From Nitrospirales bacterium LBB_01 (GTDB lineage: Bacteria > Nitrospirota > Thermodesulfovibrionia > Thermodesulfovibrionales > Magnetobacteriaceae), in the NCBI GenBank assembly GCA_004376055.2, contig CP049016.1:1860001-1924000 (forward strand): a stretch of DNA of 64,000 nucleotides. Reading direction: 5' to 3'. The notes beneath the pieces are model-generated. The model searched no databases. It was not told the DNA's origin and worked only from the letters and a program-made list of their open reading frames with translations. A program made the translations under genes and the position numbers. This document shows positions 622 through 45,205 of the stretch, piece after piece. The stretch's first letter is position 1, and every line of letters starts with the position of its first letter.

Positions 622-636
622 GTACGGAGGTTAATG

Positions 637-1104
637 ATGGAATTTAAAGATGTTTTTGAAAAGTTTGATATTTTTAATGGTCTTGATGAGACAGAAAAGA
701 AACATATTGCTGGACTCTTAAAGCGTATGTCTTTCAAAGAGGACGAGGAGATATACAAAGAAGATGAGGATGGCGGAACTCTCTATTTTCTTACAAATGG
801 TAAAGTCAGAATCTGTAAGATGTCAACAGAGGGAGACATCCTGCCGTATGCTCTGGTAAAGTCTGGTGAGATGTTTGGGCTTATGTCTTTTGTGGACGGC
901 TCTAAACACTCGGCTATAGCTTTAGCAGATAAAGACTGTGAAGCTGTCAAGTTAGAAAGGCGTGATGTTGAAGAGCTTATGGAGCAAGACCCAAAAATGG
1001 CAGCTAAAGTCTATAAAGTAATCGCTATACATCTGGCAGAAATAATCCGTTCCATGAATAATCAGTACATGGATTTGACTTCATACATGTTCAGGAAAGG
1101 GTAA
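637..1104 (+). CDS. Stand-alone cNMP-binding-fold (Crp-type) protein inside nuo operon
   Basis: A 155-residue protein that is essentially one cyclic-nucleotide-binding beta-roll (about 8-115) plus a C-terminal helix. There is no winged-helix DNA-binding domain, so it is not a complete Crp/Fnr regulator. ATG at 637 is preferred over 634 because GGAGG at 626-630 is then six bases away. In the phosphate-binding cassette the usual Glu is Leu (FGLMSF) and the usual Arg is replaced by Lys-His (GSKHSA), so classical cAMP binding is doubtful. It sits between nuoD and nuoE with short gaps (15 and 6 bases), implying co-transcription. It may be an allosteric or docking partner of complex I or of a signalling protein; the function is not known. 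Confidence 0.85.
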   Translation: MEFKDVFEKFDIFNGLDETEKKHIAGLLKRMSFKEDEEIYKEDEDGGTLYFLTNGKVRICKMSTEGDILPYALVKSGEMFGLMSFVDGSKHSAIALADKDCEAVKLERRDVEELMEQDPKMAAKVYKVIAIHLAEIIRSMNNQYMDLTSYMFRKG

Positions 1105-36445: not shown

Positions 36446-36502
36446 AATCCGCAGATGACGCAGATAATAATCTGCGAAAATCTGCGCAATCTGCGGAGAA
36501 AA
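36446..36502. repeat. R3 repeat (CTGCGGA type), copy 2
   Basis: AATCCGCAGATGACGCAGAT followed by ATCTGCGCAATCTGCGGAG; the two halves are inverted and can fold as a long hairpin. It resembles 62291-62355 and a fragment at 16349. Confidence 0.75.
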
Positions 36503-36522
36503 TCTTTTTTACTGCTTATTGA

Positions 36523-36693
36523 GTTAACTCCGGCAGAGGATTTTCTGTCAGCAAAAGATATATTTAAAAGGACTGGATTCCCGCTCGGAGGCGGGAATGA
36601 CAAAGGGGGAGATGCTTTTCTCTCTCTGTCATTCTTCTTTTCCTTGTCATTCCTGCGAAGGCAGGAATCCAGTTTTTTGTTTGCGGAGCTAAC
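36523..36693. repeat. BIME-like repeat R1, copy 3
   Basis: Units 36572-36603 and 36644-36673 between inverted outer flanks GTTAACTCC (36523-36531) and GGAGCTAAC (36685-36693). With R3 it fills the 314-base convergent gap between the efflux lipoprotein gene and tsaC. Confidence 0.9.
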
Positions 36694-36737
36694 TGCATAG
36701 GCAATTCTTTTTTTTGTGCCCTTATTCCTACATCACC

Positions 36738-37384: not shown

Positions 37385-38236
37385 TTACTGGCGCGAATAT
37401 GAATACAGGGCAAGTTCTTTGATTTTTGAATCGGCTCTTCTTAATCGCTCGCTAAAAACATAAGCCAGCTTCTTAAACACTTTCAGAGTCACTATGTCGT
37501 CATAGCCGTCCATAATTCTCTTATCCAGTTCAAACAGCATGACATCGTCGTCAGAGCGTGCTCTGGCTGAACGGGTGGCATTTTCAAGTAACGCCATCTC
37601 CCCAAAGCAAGCCCCTGGTTCAAGTCTGTGCAAAACCTCCTCAAGGCCGTCGCCAAGCACTTTGATAATGGAAACAGACCCCTCTATTATCACATAAAAC
37701 CTGTCACCGGGCTGCCCCTCATCAAAAATCAAATCGTTTCTCTTATACTTTCTGCATTTTGCCATTCTAAGAAGCTTAAAGACATCCTCATCGGCCATAA
37801 AAGAAAAGAAATCAAGTTTCCTTATCTTTGTAAATGTATCGGTCACAGCTGTTGGAATGCTCCTTATAGCATCATTTATTGCTTTAAGCAGATCATTCAT
37901 CTGAAAAGGAAATTTTAAAACAGCACTCACTCCGTTATCATAGAGTCGTTTTAGTTCGTTAACGTTTATATCATCACTGACTATTGTCAGAATTCTCAAC
38001 TTAGCAAGATTGTGATGAGCCTTCACTGCTTTCAGCAGATTTTCGTTGTCCTCCTTAAGCGTGTGATTGTCTATTATAACGAGATCGCTTTTCTCTCTTA
38101 TAAGGTAACCTATCATGTTTCTATGGTCGTTTAGCAGGCTAACGTTTGTAAAACCCAGATAATTTAATGCTCCTGTGACAAGACTCTCCTGTGAGTCGCC
38201 TGATACTGATACCAATATCTTTATGTTTTTTTCCAT
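37385..38236 (-). CDS. Receiver-like plus cNMP-binding protein
   Basis: 283 residues. Residues 5-127 are a receiver-like domain. The candidate acceptor is Asp56 (LVIIDN) and Lys108 is conserved, but the N-terminal acidic pair is missing, so phosphorylation is uncertain. Residues about 142-262 are a cNMP-binding domain with a good phosphate cassette, FGEMALLENATRSA (Glu213, Arg222). There is no DNA-binding domain. The C-terminal helix LAYVFSERLRRADSKIKEL closely resembles that of the kinase fusion at 40228. It was probably built for the same signalling network. Confidence 0.82.
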   Translation of the reverse strand: MEKNIKILVSVSGDSQESLVTGALNYLGFTNVSLLNDHRNMIGYLIREKSDLVIIDNHTLKEDNENLLKAVKAHHNLAKLRILTIVSDDINVNELKRLYDNGVSAVLKFPFQMNDLLKAINDAIRSIPTAVTDTFTKIRKLDFFSFMADEDVFKLLRMAKCRKYKRNDLIFDEGQPGDRFYVIIEGSVSIIKVLGDGLEEVLHRLEPGACFGEMALLENATRSARARSDDDVMLFELDKRIMDGYDDIVTLKVFKKLAYVFSERLRRADSKIKELALYSYSRQ

Positions 38237-38440
38237 AACATCCCTCTTGAAAACGCTTAATTTTAAGACTGAACACGTCTGTCGTTTAACTTATGAAAAC
38301 AACATGGCTACAATAATAATTTAAAACTAAAATGAGTTTATATGCAAGGGTTAACAGCAATTATTAAAAAAAAACCTCTTAAGACCGGTAAAAGTAACTC
38401 CTTAACTTTCTAAGAAATTACTAAAACTGCAGATACAAAA

Positions 38441-39172
38441 TTACTCTTTAAGGAAAAACTGAAGTTTCAAACTACTAACCTCTACGATGTCGCCCTCCTG
38501 AAGTTTATGCTGTCCTTCTACGTCTTTACCATTAACTTTTATCCCTTTTCCTCCGGTTGAGGAACTGACGGTGTAGCCGTCTTTTCTTCTGTTTACAAGT
38601 GCTGCGATTTTTGGAGCAAATAAACCCTTTAACTTAATACCGGCGCTTGCATCCTTACCAATAGTGGTAATCCTGTCAACAAGGTCATATTCGGTCTTAT
38701 CGGTTGAGCCCTCAATTACCATAAATCCGCCCACAACATCTTTCCCTGTAGCGGTCTGAGTCTGTTCAGAGCTCTTTGGCGCCCCTTTGGACAGTATTTG
38801 ATCTTTCACTTTAGCATCAATAAGTATAGTCTCATCAAGCAGGTCTCTGTCTTTTGACGGCGAAGGGGCTTTTGCGTCCTCCGGTTTATCCGAGATGAAG
38901 TTAAGCGTGTGTTTTCCTATAATAATAACATCGGCATCATGCAGGGCGTGGACGGAAATTTTTCTACCGTTTACAAAAGTGCCGTTAAGACTGCTTAAAT
39001 CCTCTATGTAATACTGGTCATCCTTTTTAAATACTTTTGCATGGACGCCCGAGACGGCCAGATTATCAACGTGTATATCATTGGTGGGCTTACGTCCCAC
39101 AGTGATGACGTCTTTGTCTATTACCACCTCTTTGATAGCCGCCTCCTTAAATTTGAGCAAAATCTTAGCCAT
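38441..39172 (-). CDS. FHA-domain protein (one canonical, one FHA-like domain)
   Basis: 243 residues. FHA 1 (about 20-95) contains VGRKPTNDIHVDNLAVSGVH and LSSLNGTFVNGR, the Arg/Ser/His and Asn-Gly residues that read phosphothreonine. A charged linker follows. A second FHA-like fold (about 150-243; ITTIGKDASAGIKLKG, GIKVNGKDVEGQ) lacks several of these. AGGAGG precedes the start, only a few bases after the phosphatase stop, so the two are one operon. Confidence 0.88.
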   Translation of the reverse strand: MAKILLKFKEAAIKEVVIDKDVITVGRKPTNDIHVDNLAVSGVHAKVFKKDDQYYIEDLSSLNGTFVNGRKISVHALHDADVIIIGKHTLNFISDKPEDAKAPSPSKDRDLLDETILIDAKVKDQILSKGAPKSSEQTQTATGKDVVGGFMVIEGSTDKTEYDLVDRITTIGKDASAGIKLKGLFAPKIAALVNRRKDGYTVSSSTGGKGIKVNGKDVEGQHKLQEGDIVEVSSLKLQFFLKE

Positions 39173-39175
39173 CGC

Positions 39176-39973
39176 TTACCTCCTGAACCATTTAAAGAAA
39201 TTATACATAAAAGAGAACAATCTCTTCTTATAAACGTATCCAACTATTACGGTTATGTTATCTCTGCCGCCTTTTTTGTTGGCAAAGCCAATAAGTCTGC
39301 TACTTATTTCCTCTGGATCGTCAGATGAGTTAACAACAAGCAAAATAGCACGCTCCGGCACCATAGTGTAGAGGCCGTCCGAGCAGAGTAACAGCACATC
39401 GCCGTCGTAAATAGTCATCTCATCGGTATCCGGCTCAACCTCTGGTGTAAAGCCCAAAGACCGGGTTATAACGTTTCTCATTCCGACCTCGTCGGCTTCT
39501 TCTTTTGTAAGTATTCCGCGTCTTATCTGCTCAGCTACAAGTGAGTGGTCATCGGTGAGAGCTTCAATGTTACCGCCGCGAATCAAATACAACCTGCTGT
39601 CTCCCACGTGTGCAATTGCAACCCTGTCTCCTCTTACAAGAGCAGCCACCACAGTGGTTGCCATTCCCGTTAAACTGTCGTCTGTTAAAGATAAATCATA
39701 AATTTCCTGGTTTGCTCTCTTTATGGCGTCATAGAGCAACCCTGTAATACTTTCAGACAAATTGTTAGCCTTTATCTTTTCGCTTATATAACTGCATATT
39801 GACTCAACTGCCATCTTGCTGGCAAGCTCTCCACGCTGGGAGCCGCCCACACCATCGGCCACCACATACAGTCCAGCAGACTTGTCTATGCAAAAACTGT
39901 CCTCATTTCTTGACCGCCTAAGACCCACGTCCGACTTGCCGGCTGCCTTTACAACCATGGACTCCTGTGACAT
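39176..39973 (-). CDS. PP2C-family Ser/Thr phosphatase
   Basis: 265 residues, Stp1/PrpC type. Metal-binding motifs SRNEDSFCID, VADGVGGSQRGELAS, HVGDSRLYLIRGG, LLLCSDGLYTMV and GGRDNITVIV are all present. A C-terminal basic segment lacks a membrane helix. It reverses Ser/Thr phosphorylation and is transcribed divergently from the kinase-cNMP gene. Confidence 0.94.
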   Translation of the reverse strand: MSQESMVVKAAGKSDVGLRRSRNEDSFCIDKSAGLYVVADGVGGSQRGELASKMAVESICSYISEKIKANNLSESITGLLYDAIKRANQEIYDLSLTDDSLTGMATTVVAALVRGDRVAIAHVGDSRLYLIRGGNIEALTDDHSLVAEQIRRGILTKEEADEVGMRNVITRSLGFTPEVEPDTDEMTIYDGDVLLLCSDGLYTMVPERAILLVVNSSDDPEEISSRLIGFANKKGGRDNITVIVGYVYKKRLFSFMYNFFKWFRR

Positions 39974-40213
39974 TAACCTTTTAAACCACTCACAACCGCT
40001 TTGGCGGCTTTAAAAAACCTCACTTCGCAGTGCCTCCATATTTCCAGCGTTAAAAAACGTATTATATCCAAATATTCAATATTTTTCAACTAATATTCGG
40101 TATTTTAACATAATAATTAAAAGTACATATTTAACATATCGGTAAAACAAGTTTAAAAAATGAGTGTTAAACATTTTATTTTTGAAATTTACATTTTTTT
40201 AAAACACTTCTAT

Positions 40214-40219
40214 TATAAT
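40214..40219 (+). promoter_or_regulatory. -10 box for kinase gene, leaderless transcript likely
   Basis: A perfect TATAAT ends eight bases before the ATG at 40228, so transcription would start at or one to two bases before the start codon. No Shine-Dalgarno sequence is present. The -35 region is unclear. Confidence 0.55.
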
Positions 40220-40227
40220 AGCAGAAT

Positions 40228-41562
40228 ATGATTGGCAAAATTGGCAGATATGAGATACTTAGCACTCTCGGAGAGGGTTCTATGGGGATTGTCTATAAGG
40301 CTCACGATACTATTATTGAGCGCATAGTGGCTATTAAAACGGTGAAAGTAAGCAACAAAGCAAACCGTGTTGAGCGTTTTTATCATGAGGCCAAAGTAGC
40401 CGGTAAACTGACTCATCCTAACATCGCTATGATTTACGATATTGGCGAGGACAATTCAACTCACTTTCTCGTGTTTGAATACGTAAAGGGTAAAACCATG
40501 AAAGATGTTATCCTAAGCGGTTCCGATATTCCTTTGTTTGAAAAAATGCGCATTCTTGTGCTTATATCCCGCACGCTGCACTACGCTCATCAAAAAGGGG
40601 TCATCCACAGAGACGTAAAACCTGCAAACATTATGCTGATACCCGATAAACAGGTAAAAATAATGGACTTTGGCATTGCAGTGTTTGCCGCCTCTGAGGT
40701 CTCTTGCGAGGAAAGATGCCTTGGCACTCCGTACTACATGGCCCCTGAGCAGATAAAAGGCGCTCCGCTTGACAGGACAACCGATATCTACTCACTGGGA
40801 GCAGTTTCATACGAATTCTTAACCGGCACAAAACCATTCTTAGCAGACGGCATAGATCAGCTTTTTGAGAAAATTCAAAAAGAGGAACCTCCTCCGCCTT
40901 ATATTCTCAACTCTGCCATAAGTGAGGACGTAAGCGGCTACATTTTAAAAGCTCTGCAAAAACAAAAAGAACTGCGCTACCAGACTGCCAGTGAATATGC
41001 CGATGCGCTTGAGTTTTATATAAATCGTGCGGAAATAGATTTGACTTCTGTTCCTGCGGCGGCGGTTGATTTTGATAAGAAGCAGCTTGTTGAAACGCTT
41101 AAAAAGCGTTATACTTTTTTTGCCGATTTTTCAGATTCAGAACTACTTTTGATATTTAGCATAAGCGGTAAGAAATCCTATAAAAAGGGAGACATAATTT
41201 TCAGAGAGGATACCATAGGCGATAAGATTTTCATAATAATAACCGGCAAGGTTAGAATCACCAAGATTTTTCCAAACGACACGGAGGAGACTTTTTTGGC
41301 CTCACTTAGTCAGGGCGATTGTTTCGGAGAGATGGCCATCATGGATTCCTCCCCACGGTTTGCAACCGCTATGGCACAAACCGACTGCGTTTTGATAGCC
41401 ATAAGCGAGGTAATACTCAGAACCTCCGAACCGAACCTGTGTCTAAAATTATATAAAAATCTTGCCGCCGTACTGTCTGAAAAACTAAGAAAAAGCGACA
41501 CCAAGATTAATGAGCTTTGGACAAAACTCAAACAATTTGACTCTGCTGTTGTGAAGAAATAA
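40228..41562 (+). CDS. Ser/Thr protein kinase fused to a cNMP-binding domain
   Basis: 444 residues. Kinase domain 8-265: glycine loop GEGSMG (15-20), Lys37, helix-C Glu54, HRDVKPAN (127-134), DFG (147-149), APE (172-174), all intact. After a linker, residues about 295-420 form a cNMP-binding domain with cassette GDCFGEMAIMDSSPRFATA (Glu368, Arg377), so ligand binding is plausible. No transmembrane segment or PASTA repeat is present. This order, kinase first and cNMP domain last, is the reverse of eukaryotic PKG. The C-terminal helix NLAAVLSEKLRKSDTKINEL is shared with the 37385 gene. It faces the PP2C-FHA operon across a 254-base A+T-rich gap. Confidence 0.93.
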   Translation: MIGKIGRYEILSTLGEGSMGIVYKAHDTIIERIVAIKTVKVSNKANRVERFYHEAKVAGKLTHPNIAMIYDIGEDNSTHFLVFEYVKGKTMKDVILSGSDIPLFEKMRILVLISRTLHYAHQKGVIHRDVKPANIMLIPDKQVKIMDFGIAVFAASEVSCEERCLGTPYYMAPEQIKGAPLDRTTDIYSLGAVSYEFLTGTKPFLADGIDQLFEKIQKEEPPPPYILNSAISEDVSGYILKALQKQKELRYQTASEYADALEFYINRAEIDLTSVPAAAVDFDKKQLVETLKKRYTFFADFSDSELLLIFSISGKKSYKKGDIIFREDTIGDKIFIIITGKVRITKIFPNDTEETFLASLSQGDCFGEMAIMDSSPRFATAMAQTDCVLIAISEVILRTSEPNLCLKLYKNLAAVLSEKLRKSDTKINELWTKLKQFDSAVVKK

Positions 41563-41826: not shown

Positions 41827-42654
41827 TTACGCCGCCATCGCAAAATCAGAGCTTTTATAAACCTCGGCAGGTGTTTTGCCTCTAAGCGTAGAATGCGGAC
41901 GCTCATTGTTATAAAAATCAAAATAGCTCCTTAGCGCTTTAATCAACTCATCAACAGTTTCATAATCTTTTATATAAACCTCCTCATACTTGACACTGCG
42001 CCACAGCCGCTCAATCATGATATTATCCATAGCCCGTCCTCTGCCATCCATACTTATCCGAATCCCATTGCTCTGAAGCACATTGATAAACGCTGCCCCT
42101 GTATACTGGCTGCCTTGATCTGTGTTGAATATCTCAGGACTGCCATAGAGCCTAAGGGCTCGCTCAAGGCTACTTACGCAAAAACCATCATCCATTGTCA
42201 CTGACACCTCCCATGACAGCACATAGCGGCTATACCAGTCCATTACTGCTGTCAGATACACAAAGCCATGTCTCATTCGAATATACGTTATATCACTGCA
42301 CCAGACTTGGTTGATGATAGTAATATCTAATAATCGCAGTAGATAAGGGTAAACTTTATGTTGCTTATTCCGTACTGTCGTTCTTTTTCTGGGTGCTATA
42401 GATACAAGACCCATCAACATCATCAAACGCTTTACTCGCTTGCGATTTACTTTATATCCTGCTCGGAAAAGAATGTAAACCATTGTGCGGCTTCCATACC
42501 ATGGATGCATTGTGTACTGCTCATCTATTGCCCTCATCACCTTCAAATTCTCCTCGCTCTCCGGTACTGCCTGACGATAATAACTGGAGCGTGGAAGGCT
42601 TAGCAGGTTACACTGCTGACGAATACTCAATTCCTTATTTGCTGGCTCTATCAT
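41827..42654 (-). CDS. IS3-family transposase OrfB, DDE integrase (copy B)
   Basis: 275 residues, identical to the copy A OrfB except for one Gly-to-Ser change near residue 10. The DDE residues are intact (CSDITYIR, NTDQGSQY, IERLWRS), so it should be active. Confidence 0.94.
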   Translation of the reverse strand: MIEPANKELSIRQQCNLLSLPRSSYYRQAVPESEENLKVMRAIDEQYTMHPWYGSRTMVYILFRAGYKVNRKRVKRLMMLMGLVSIAPRKRTTVRNKQHKVYPYLLRLLDITIINQVWCSDITYIRMRHGFVYLTAVMDWYSRYVLSWEVSVTMDDGFCVSSLERALRLYGSPEIFNTDQGSQYTGAAFINVLQSNGIRISMDGRGRAMDNIMIERLWRSVKYEEVYIKDYETVDELIKALRSYFDFYNNERPHSTLRGKTPAEVYKSSDFAMAA

Positions 42655-42668
42655 CGCTCGTTTCTCAC

Positions 42669-42962
42669 TTACCGTTGCGCAAGTAACAGGCTCTTTTTTT
42701 TTAGCCAGTCCACTTCTACTTGCAACTTCCCTATTTGACTATATAACCGCTCTCGCTCTGATTCATATGCCGCCTGAGAATTTTCTTGCACTCCATTAAA
42801 TAACGTTGACGCCCCTTCTACTAAATGCTTTTTCCATTCATTCACCTGGTTCACATGAATATCAAATTCCTGCGCTATCTCATTGGCTGTCCTCTGACCT
42901 TTGAGCGCTTCTATTGCTACTTTTGCTTTGTACTCTTTGCCAAACTTCCGTCTGTTTTTCAT
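42669..42962 (-). CDS. IS3-family transposase OrfA (copy B)
   Basis: 97 residues, same sequence as the copy A OrfA, with helix-turn-helix and coiled coil and the same A9G run near its end. Confidence 0.93.
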   Translation of the reverse strand: MKNRRKFGKEYKAKVAIEALKGQRTANEIAQEFDIHVNQVNEWKKHLVEGASTLFNGVQENSQAAYESERERLYSQIGKLQVEVDWLKKKSLLLAQR

Positions 42963-43123: not shown

Positions 43124-45205
43124 ATGAAAGCAACTGAAAACAATCTAAGTCGTTTCCTATCGGTAACTGACACTCAATTTCACATTCCTGTATATCAGAG
43201 AAATTATGATTGGACTTTAAAGCACTGTCAACAACTGCTTAATGACATTATTAACGTAGGAAAAGACGATAAAGCTACTTCTCATTTCATTGGCAGTATT
43301 GTTTACATTCACGATGACGTATATTCGGCGTCAAGTATTAGGGAGCTATTGATAATTGATGGTCAACAACGTCTTATTACTGTTACGCTAATTTATATCT
43401 CATTAATGCACTTGGCAAAAGATCTGAACAAACAACAAATGTTTGATAAAATTAATGAATCATATATAATTAATAAATTCGCCAAAGAAGAGGAAAAACT
43501 AAAACTAAAACCAACTGAAAACAATAACAAGCTGCTAAAGCTGTTGATTCAGGGAGAGAATCTTCAAGATCATGCTGAATACTCTAAGCTCAGGATGAAT
43601 TATTTGTTTTTTCGTAAAAATATATCAGAGAGCAATCATGAGGTCATATTAGACGGCTTAAATAAGTTAGTTTATGTTGATGTTGCTCTTGAACGTCAAA
43701 AAGACAGCCCTCAAAAAATATTTGAAAGCCTCAATTCTACAGGATTAGCATTAAGCCAAGCTGACCTAATTAGAAATTATATTTTAATGGGATTGCAACC
43801 TCGACCTCAAGCAAAGTTTTATAATAATTATTGGAAAGACATTGAATTGTTAGCTTTAAATGAGTCAAATCGAGAGGATAAAGTATCAGACTTTGTTCGT
43901 GATTACTTAACAATGAAAAAGAGAGAAATACCTAATAAAAGTGATGTATATAAGATTTTTAAGGACATATTTACTTTGGAGGGCAATGTTACAGAAATAG
44001 AGAACCTGCTTGCTCATCTAAAAAAATACGCTGCTTATTTCAATAAATTACTTAACCCATCCAAAGAACCTGATAAGGAAATTCAGAATCGGCTAAGAAA
44101 CATCGATAAGTTAGAAATAAACGTTGTATATCCTTTTTTGTTAGAAGTCTACAGTGATTATGATGATGGTGTGATTGACAAAGGAACTTTGATTGGAGTG
44201 TTGGATATTATAGAATCTTATGTTTGGAGAAGGCTTACAGCATCCTTACCTTCAAATGCATTAAACAAGGTATTTATGCGACTGTATGAAGATATTAATA
44301 AAGATGACTATCTTGGGTCAGTACAGCGTGTGTTGGTAAGAAAGCGCGGAACAGGGCGCTTTCCTAATGATAAAGAAATTAAATCAGCCCTCAGAGAGAA
44401 AGATGTATATAACATAAGGAATAGGACAAGAAGCTATTTTTTAGAAAAGTTAGAAAATTATGAGAATAGAGAAATCGTTGATATAGATGGCAATGAAAAT
44501 ATTACTGTGGAGCACATTTTCCCTCAAAATCCTGAACCTAAATGGAGAGTAGTCCTCGGAGAAGATGAGTATATTAAGATTAAGGATAGTTATTTGGATA
44601 CGATTGCAAACCTTACTTTATCTGGAAATAATGGCAAACTTGGCAATAAATATTTCACAGATAAGCGGGACATGAATGAGGATAATAAGGAGCAGGGATA
44701 TAAATATAGTCGTCTATGGCTAAACCGGTTTCTTGCCTCCTGTGAAAGATGGGACTTAGCTGAAATTGAAAAAAGATTTGATTTAATTTATGAGCGATAT
44801 TTAAAAATATGGAATTATCCAATATTTGAAGAAACTGATAATATGGATAATGACGAAATCAATATCTTTGATGCAGAAGATCCAACTCATAAGAAATTGG
44901 AATACGCTATTTTTCTCGATCAAAAAAAGGACATAAAAAATGTTGCCAAGTTGTATGAAGATGTAATGAAAGAGCTTTTTGACATTCAACCCGAAACATT
45001 TTTTACTTCAGAAGAGCTTTGTACTAAACTTTCTCTTACTACTGATAAAGAAAAATTAAGGAAACCGTTAGCATTGAATAACACTGTTTATATTGAAGCT
45101 AACTTAGACTCTAAGGACAAGTTTGAAAGAATCAAACTGGCGCTTAATATTTTTGATATTAAGGATGAATTACTTATTAAGTACGCAACATCTGATGATG
45201 AATGA
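43124..45205 (+). CDS. DUF262/DUF1524 (GmrSD-like) defence protein
   Basis: 693 residues, ATG after GGGAGG. The N-terminal DUF262 (ParB/sulfiredoxin-like NTPase) has FHIPVYQRNYDW and IDGQQRLITVTL. The middle is helical, FESLNSTGLALSQADLIRNY being a second family block. DUF1524 (His-Me nuclease-like) has ITVEHIFPQNP and TIANLTLSGNNGKLGN. A C-terminal extension (about 590-693) resembles none of these and may be a recognition module. This architecture belongs to the GmrSD/type IV restriction and related anti-phage families. A+T-rich codon use and the IS copy next to it suggest acquisition. Confidence 0.87.
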   Translation: MKATENNLSRFLSVTDTQFHIPVYQRNYDWTLKHCQQLLNDIINVGKDDKATSHFIGSIVYIHDDVYSASSIRELLIIDGQQRLITVTLIYISLMHLAKDLNKQQMFDKINESYIINKFAKEEEKLKLKPTENNNKLLKLLIQGENLQDHAEYSKLRMNYLFFRKNISESNHEVILDGLNKLVYVDVALERQKDSPQKIFESLNSTGLALSQADLIRNYILMGLQPRPQAKFYNNYWKDIELLALNESNREDKVSDFVRDYLTMKKREIPNKSDVYKIFKDIFTLEGNVTEIENLLAHLKKYAAYFNKLLNPSKEPDKEIQNRLRNIDKLEINVVYPFLLEVYSDYDDGVIDKGTLIGVLDIIESYVWRRLTASLPSNALNKVFMRLYEDINKDDYLGSVQRVLVRKRGTGRFPNDKEIKSALREKDVYNIRNRTRSYFLEKLENYENREIVDIDGNENITVEHIFPQNPEPKWRVVLGEDEYIKIKDSYLDTIANLTLSGNNGKLGNKYFTDKRDMNEDNKEQGYKYSRLWLNRFLASCERWDLAEIEKRFDLIYERYLKIWNYPIFEETDNMDNDEINIFDAEDPTHKKLEYAIFLDQKKDIKNVAKLYEDVMKELFDIQPETFFTSEELCTKLSLTTDKEKLRKPLALNNTVYIEANLDSKDKFERIKLALNIFDIKDELLIKYATSDDE

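Follow-up and report, generated by a model that had tools for sequence, protein, structure and literature searches.

A putative cyclic-nucleotide-tuned phosphorylation switch around a conserved PP2C-FHA gene pair in Magnetobacteriaceae

We analysed a 64-kb stretch (hereafter the window; contig CP049016.1, positions 1,860,001 to 1,924,000) of the complete, 3.27 Mb genome of Nitrospirales bacterium LBB_01. The locus in question, at window positions 37385-41562, comprises four genes, all with open reading frames (ORFs) open. They encode a Ser/Thr kinase with a C-terminal cyclic-nucleotide-binding domain (CNB), a PP2C-type phosphatase, a protein with two FHA domains, and a pseudo-receiver protein with a CNB (RR-cNMP) (Table 1). 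Gene neighbourhoods lend good support to a conserved unit of three of these genes (kinase, PP2C and FHA), not four. We read the unit as a three-component reversible phosphorylation switch, in which a cAMP-tuned kinase would phosphorylate a threonine in the linker of the FHA protein and the PP2C would reverse the reaction. In our judgement the case for this reading is evenly balanced. The compact switch of the original prediction survives as a conserved trio with a cyclic-nucleotide-type input, but its four-gene version is not general.

Some 20 CNB proteins are encoded in the genome, and beside them we counted seven FHA matches, two PP2C genes and about a dozen genes for kinases. A lone CNB gene is thus unremarkable and, as each of these types is common, only their arrangement can inform. 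We compared an FHA alignment with ~85,000 species genomes by means of conserved peptide patterns, so that the resulting set of loci is non-exhaustive. The search yielded 80 loci in Nitrospirota, Thermodesulfobacteriota, Myxococcota, Elusimicrobiota and Pseudomonadota. The nearest named relatives of the window were Nitrospirota metagenome-assembled genomes, and the family hits included Candidatus Magnetominusculus, Candidatus Magnetobacterium and Magnetobacteriaceae. The PP2C gene was located immediately upstream of the FHA gene, on the same strand, at 67 of the 71 loci with room for it, with a median gap of 14 nt (3 nt in the window). The third gene was usually a kinase of 820-850 amino acids (aa), which carried an N-terminal CHASE2 domain in those scanned. 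Kinases with a CNB (cNMP kinases) stood beside PP2C-FHA only in Nitrospirota, among the loci found. Most loci showed no conserved flanking genes hinting at function, and no relative was found in viral contigs.

Within the Magnetobacteriaceae, PP2C-FHA adjoined a kinase of the window type (type I) in nine genomes (G000, G001, G002, G004, G005, G006, G009, G015 and G018). A CHASE2-kinase occupied the place beside the pair in G007, in what would be the ancestral arrangement, and the contig ended at the locus in G003 and G012, where linkage could not be read. The RR-cNMP gene adjoined the trio only in the genus of the window (g1) and was separate outside it; accordingly, the conserved four-gene neighbourhood, for which a check in relatives had been proposed, was rejected, and the linked trio is what stood. 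In a sister family (f12), a type III cNMP kinase was packed tightly into one operon with FHA and a fusion of CHASE2 to PP2C in all five genomes fetched. There the membrane sensor is on the phosphatase and not on the kinase (L057/L099, L183-L186); with a cNMP domain on the kinase, the two antagonists would each respond to a signal of their own.

In the kinase-domain trees, the CHASE2-kinases, the type I/II and the type III kinases formed three separate clades, meaning that the cNMP kinases are different kinases beside or replacing the CHASE2-kinase, and not CHASE2-kinases with a changed domain. The wide spread of the CHASE2 form suggests that it is the ancestral one. That the type I and type III fusions of kinase and CNB arose only once was not rejected when their CNBs were placed in one clade (approximately unbiased test, p 0.32), and the kinase-domain tree support for type I and type III as one clade was 85/60. 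Among 295 Nitrospirota genomes, those of Magnetobacteriaceae alone had full-length cNMP kinases of type I/II at the threshold used. RR-cNMP (threshold E 1e-35) was present in 19/19 genomes of this family and in 0/41 other genomes of the order. The expansion of both appears specific to the Magnetobacteriaceae, a family of magnetotactic-type Nitrospirota.

The predicted fusion of a kinase to a C-terminal cNMP domain was borne out by Pfam (Pkinase, 182 bits; cNMP_binding, 77 bits). Residues K37, E54, HRD127-129, DFG147-149 and P173-E174 were invariant in the eight aligned homologues, and the G-loop, VAIK Lys, HRD, DFG and APE motifs identify a Hanks-type (PknB-like) kinase. The kinase part was closest to PknB, and structure comparison of the model gave the PknB fold with Z 32. 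In the phosphate-binding cassette (PBC) of the CNB, the Glu and Arg expected from the original prediction were indeed kept (Glu368 and Arg377) and were invariant in 8/8 aligned homologues, including the type III kinase. The cassette reads PRFAT, with Phe at the position of Ala/Thr/Ser in CRP, as well as in PKA and PKG. For PKA and PKG, the consensus is that of Kannan et al. (PMC2246266). The AlphaFold model (pLDDT 82.5, pTM 0.79) was fairly confident for both domains and ended in a 42-residue helix (residues 402-443). The solved structures that best matched the CNB were parasite PKGs. The structure comparison of the full model was filled by kinase-domain matches and was hence uninformative on the CNB. 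Longer kinase-CNB proteins of ~740-754 aa occurred in genus g2 (L069:6651-8870, L070:8491-10755 and L071:6768-9008); the one scanned, L069, had a phosphate-binding-protein-like domain (PF12849) C-terminal to the CNB.

The PP2C, described earlier as divergent, was intact: its metal-binding Asp motifs (NED, ADG, GDS, SDG and DN) were conserved in the family alignment. It is the sole stand-alone PP2C of the two in the genome. The gene is the first of an operon with FHA that is transcribed opposite to the kinase. The dual FHA protein also has the two domains assigned to it, which hhalign relates to each other through their profiles (97.5%, E 6e-12), but the second is degenerate, with its phosphothreonine-binding residues gone. 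FHA1 was intact, with G26, R27, S41, H44 and N63 invariant in 75 homologues, and its closest solved structures were GarA and OdhI. The AlphaFold model of the protein showed two beta-sandwiches, and most of the linker was predicted to be disordered. In this linker, Thr115 was kept in 71/75 homologues, while the neighbouring positions varied freely. The residue before Thr115 is mostly Asp/Glu or Lys, and those after it are aliphatic, including the one at +3, where FHA domains often favour an aliphatic side chain.

Five class III cyclase matches were found in the genome. All four that we inspected had the adenylate-type Lys and Asp, the residue rule that marks adenylate cyclases, which makes cAMP the likeliest ligand of the kinase. 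Two cyclases had a CHASE2-like N-terminal half, as judged by eye. A class III adenylate-type cyclase with a C-terminal FHA fusion (L182:3755-4666, genome ~2982754-2983665) possibly links Thr phosphorylation back to cAMP synthesis.

In the mechanism that we propose, a soluble PknB-type kinase, acting as a coiled-coil dimer, would be tuned through its C-terminal CNB, most likely by cAMP, and would place a phosphate on linker Thr115 of the neighbouring FHA protein. The phosphorylated linker would be captured by FHA1 of the same chain (in cis) or of a second copy (in trans), and the capture would change which target proteins the FHA protein binds. The PP2C would then strip the phosphate and reset the system. 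The genes and their domains, the conserved catalytic, PBC and Thr residues, the gene order, the taxonomic distribution and the cyclases with adenylate-type residues are observed, whereas the identity of the ligand, the gating, the phosphorylation of Thr115, the intramolecular FHA binding, the substrate and the direction of control are inferred. The unit may derive from, or run parallel to, the widespread CHASE2-kinase/PP2C/FHA operon, its membrane-sensing kinase having been replaced or supplemented by a cyclic-nucleotide-sensing one. An existing phosphorylation switch thus seems to have acquired a new input in the Magnetobacteriaceae. More tentatively, and with some doubt on our part, the locus could be seen as a bacterial counterpart of PKG: cAMP would gate the kinase, whose dedicated target would be an FHA switch protein with one conserved linker Thr, and the arrangement would have arisen by an input swap in the CHASE2-kinase/PP2C/FHA module. 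As kinase and phosphatase are encoded together with a likely substrate that has only one predicted phospho-site, the question of cyclic-nucleotide gating is directly testable. An output pair that is conserved across phyla while its sensor changes is also a natural experiment in signal rewiring.

Several observations weigh against such a switch. The kinase was unlinked from PP2C-FHA in four Magnetobacteriaceae genomes (G008, G010, G011 and G013). Separation of the genes in relatives had been named in advance as evidence against the cluster; it does occur for the kinase, in at least these four genomes, but PP2C and FHA stay paired in the family. The dozen or so kinase genes face only two PP2C genes, and so the PP2C, or the pair, may serve several kinases. 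The FHA protein could have a different kinase as its partner, e.g. the CHASE2-kinase that the window genome encodes at 2330637, away from the trio. Moreover, the phospho-site of GarA lies N-terminal to its FHA domain and not in a linker behind it. Much of this would fit a PP2C-FHA pair that serves as a general readout for many kinases, the adjacent cNMP kinase being one of several inputs and its adjacency regulatory or historical. The kinase-to-phosphatase tally and the unlinked kinases favour that account, as do the persistence of the CHASE2-kinase that accompanies PP2C-FHA elsewhere and the placement of CHASE2, type I and type III kinases in separate clades. Nevertheless, the kinase that adjoins PP2C-FHA in two families is not a random one but a cNMP kinase from one of two separate clades, and we regard a general readout as possible, yet not probable.

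The trio might also work on another input, with the CNB serving for dimerisation or localisation, or binding some other ligand, and exerting no cAMP/cGMP gating. Bacterial CNB domains sense varied ligands (PMC2246266); the Phe in the PRFAT cassette departs from PKA, PKG and CRP, and the long C-terminal helix of the model would be compatible with a coiled coil. These points are opposed by the invariance of Glu368 and Arg377, which extends to the separate type III kinase, and by the presence of cyclases with adenylate-type residues, so that we judge an ungated CNB unlikely. Chance adjacency of four unrelated signalling genes could account for an RR-cNMP gene that stands apart outside g1. For the three-gene core it is contradicted by the PP2C-FHA pairing and by the repeated association with kinases across families and phyla, which leaves it very improbable. 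The original prediction had also drawn a parallel with the threonine-phosphorylation pathway of the type VI secretion system (PpkA/PppA/Fha), which combines the same three activities. However, the trio forms a widespread unit that has no further genes conserved beside it, and the FHA protein here is a short, two-FHA one. The sheath gene VipB was absent from the whole genome in a search whose control was positive in E. coli. This parallel was dropped, its likelihood being negligible.

Among known systems, the CHASE2-kinase/PP2C/FHA-FHA operon is similar in its homologous PP2C and FHA-linker-FHA proteins, in their order and in the linker Thr. Its kinase, however, stands first and has an N-terminal CHASE2 sensor, whereas the window kinase is soluble, has a C-terminal CNB and is divergently transcribed. 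We found this operon in the genomes compared here, and the literature that we searched held nothing specific on it. GarA and OdhI of Actinobacteria (kinases PknB/PknG) share with the window protein the closest FHA structure, a conserved Thr outside the FHA domain and a PknB-type kinase. They differ in having a single FHA domain and an N-terminal ETTS-type phospho-motif, as opposed to two FHA domains with the Thr in the linker before the degenerate one. The phosphothreonine of GarA is bound by GarA's own FHA domain (PMC5448819); for the window protein, self-binding is a prediction. FHA-1 structures of Rv1747 were among the solved-structure matches to FHA1. The regulatory region of Rv1747 has the order FHA1-linker-FHA2, and candidate phospho-threonines lie in the linker between its two FHA domains. 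The whole Rv1747 protein is an ABC transporter, while the window FHA protein has no transporter part. PKG also has its CNB and kinase in one chain, but with several N-terminal CNBs, whereas the window kinase has a single C-terminal CNB, is PknB-type and is putatively gated; by these features it falls outside PKG proper.

As reported by Kannan et al. (2007; PMC2246266, Table 1), CNB domains on kinases or on CheY receivers form a listed class, 'Other_bacterial'. Both window architectures fit this class, for which the available text describes neither gene context nor mechanism. It is also known that FHA proteins, kinases and phosphatases correlate in bacteria (PMC2176072). In a limited literature search, we came across no bacterial Ser/Thr kinase whose gating by a cyclic nucleotide had been characterised biochemically. 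The domain combinations are already known as a class, and the point of interest here is that the PP2C-FHA pair is conserved while the sensory input around it is exchanged.

The receiver assignment of the RR-cNMP protein held in part. The protein has a CNB (Pfam cNMP_binding, 77 bits) and an N-terminal domain whose profile resembles that of a receiver (CheY, E 7.7e-11), but its Response_reg score of 20 bits is under the cut-off of 30.2. Alignment to CheY showed the acid pair replaced by Ser/Val and the Lys by Phe/Tyr in the window protein and its relatives, with the phospho-Asp56 invariant. The domain is thus a pseudo-receiver that departs from canonical response-regulator receivers. The CNB keeps the predicted Glu and Arg (Glu213 and Arg222, both invariant). 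RR-cNMP is probably a family-specific cyclic-nucleotide effector, and it is a neighbour of the conserved core, not a component of it.

The C-terminal helix said to be shared by the two CNB proteins, LSEKLRKSDTKINEL / FSERLRRADSKIKEL, is present in the kinase and RR-cNMP proteins. CRP structures aligned with both CNBs through this helix, which identifies it as the alpha-C dimerisation helix of the CRP family. Similar C-terminal helices occurred in other CNB proteins of the genome, and the helix was rejected as a special signature of the two. Their CNBs are nonetheless among the nearest in the genome: those of the type I/II kinases and RR-cNMP were mutual best matches beyond their own paralogues, and a tree constrained so that the CNBs of type I kinases and of RR-cNMP share one origin was not rejected (p 0.45). 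The CNB protein of the nuo operon, as had been noted, lacks both the PBC Glu (FGLM) and the Arg (KHSA), and is possibly a non-nucleotide CNB in a complex I context.

Table 1. Features of the locus and of the nuo-operon CNB protein, in window coordinates.
Feature	Position	Strand	Basis or remark
Pseudo-receiver + CNB protein (RR-cNMP), 283 aa	37385..38236	-	Pfam, CheY profile match
CNB of RR-cNMP	~37517-37753	-	
FHA-linker-degenerate FHA protein, 243 aa	38441..39172	-	Pfam FHA 88 bits; hhalign; AlphaFold model
Pseudo-FHA	~38444-38737	-	
Thr115 codon, motif DET-aliphatic-x-aliphatic, proposed phospho-acceptor	38828..38830	-	Conservation in homologues
FHA1	~38888-39172	-	
PP2C-type Ser/Thr phosphatase, 265 aa	39176..39973	-	Pfam PP2C_2, 68 bits; family alignment
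Promoter-like site 5' of PP2C-FHA, TTGAAA-17-TATAAT	40061..40089	-	Consensus scan only
Promoter-like site 5' of kinase, TTTACA-17-TATTAT	40188..40216	+	Consensus scan only
Ser/Thr kinase + C-terminal CNB, 444 aa, type I	40228..41562	+	Pfam, alignment, AlphaFold model
Kinase domain	~40249-40983	+	
CNB of kinase	~41173-41409	+	
Long C-terminal helix of kinase	~41431-41556	+	
nuo-operon CNB protein	634-1104	+	Directly 5' of genes resembling NuoE and NuoF

A scan of the window for CRP-like operators at two mismatches gave 39 matches against 28 expected, none of them convincing. A second signalling cluster, at genome ~832-847 kb (L008, L010), combined several ORFs for kinases with FHA domains and the second PP2C of the genome, which shares a 591-aa frame with an FHA match. 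Downstream of the kinase we observed an IS3-type insertion sequence (orfA and orfB, 41827-42962, minus strand) with further genomic copies that are identical or nearly so (L053, L054). It is adjoined by a gene for a GmrSD-type restriction endonuclease of 693 aa (43124-45205, plus strand). On the other side of the locus, an ORF at 36455-36700 (plus strand) has the C-terminal peptide FLRRQESSFLFAELTA, which also ends the ORFs L052:15391-15603 and L083:716-1387; the repeat is dispersed and reads as coding sequence.

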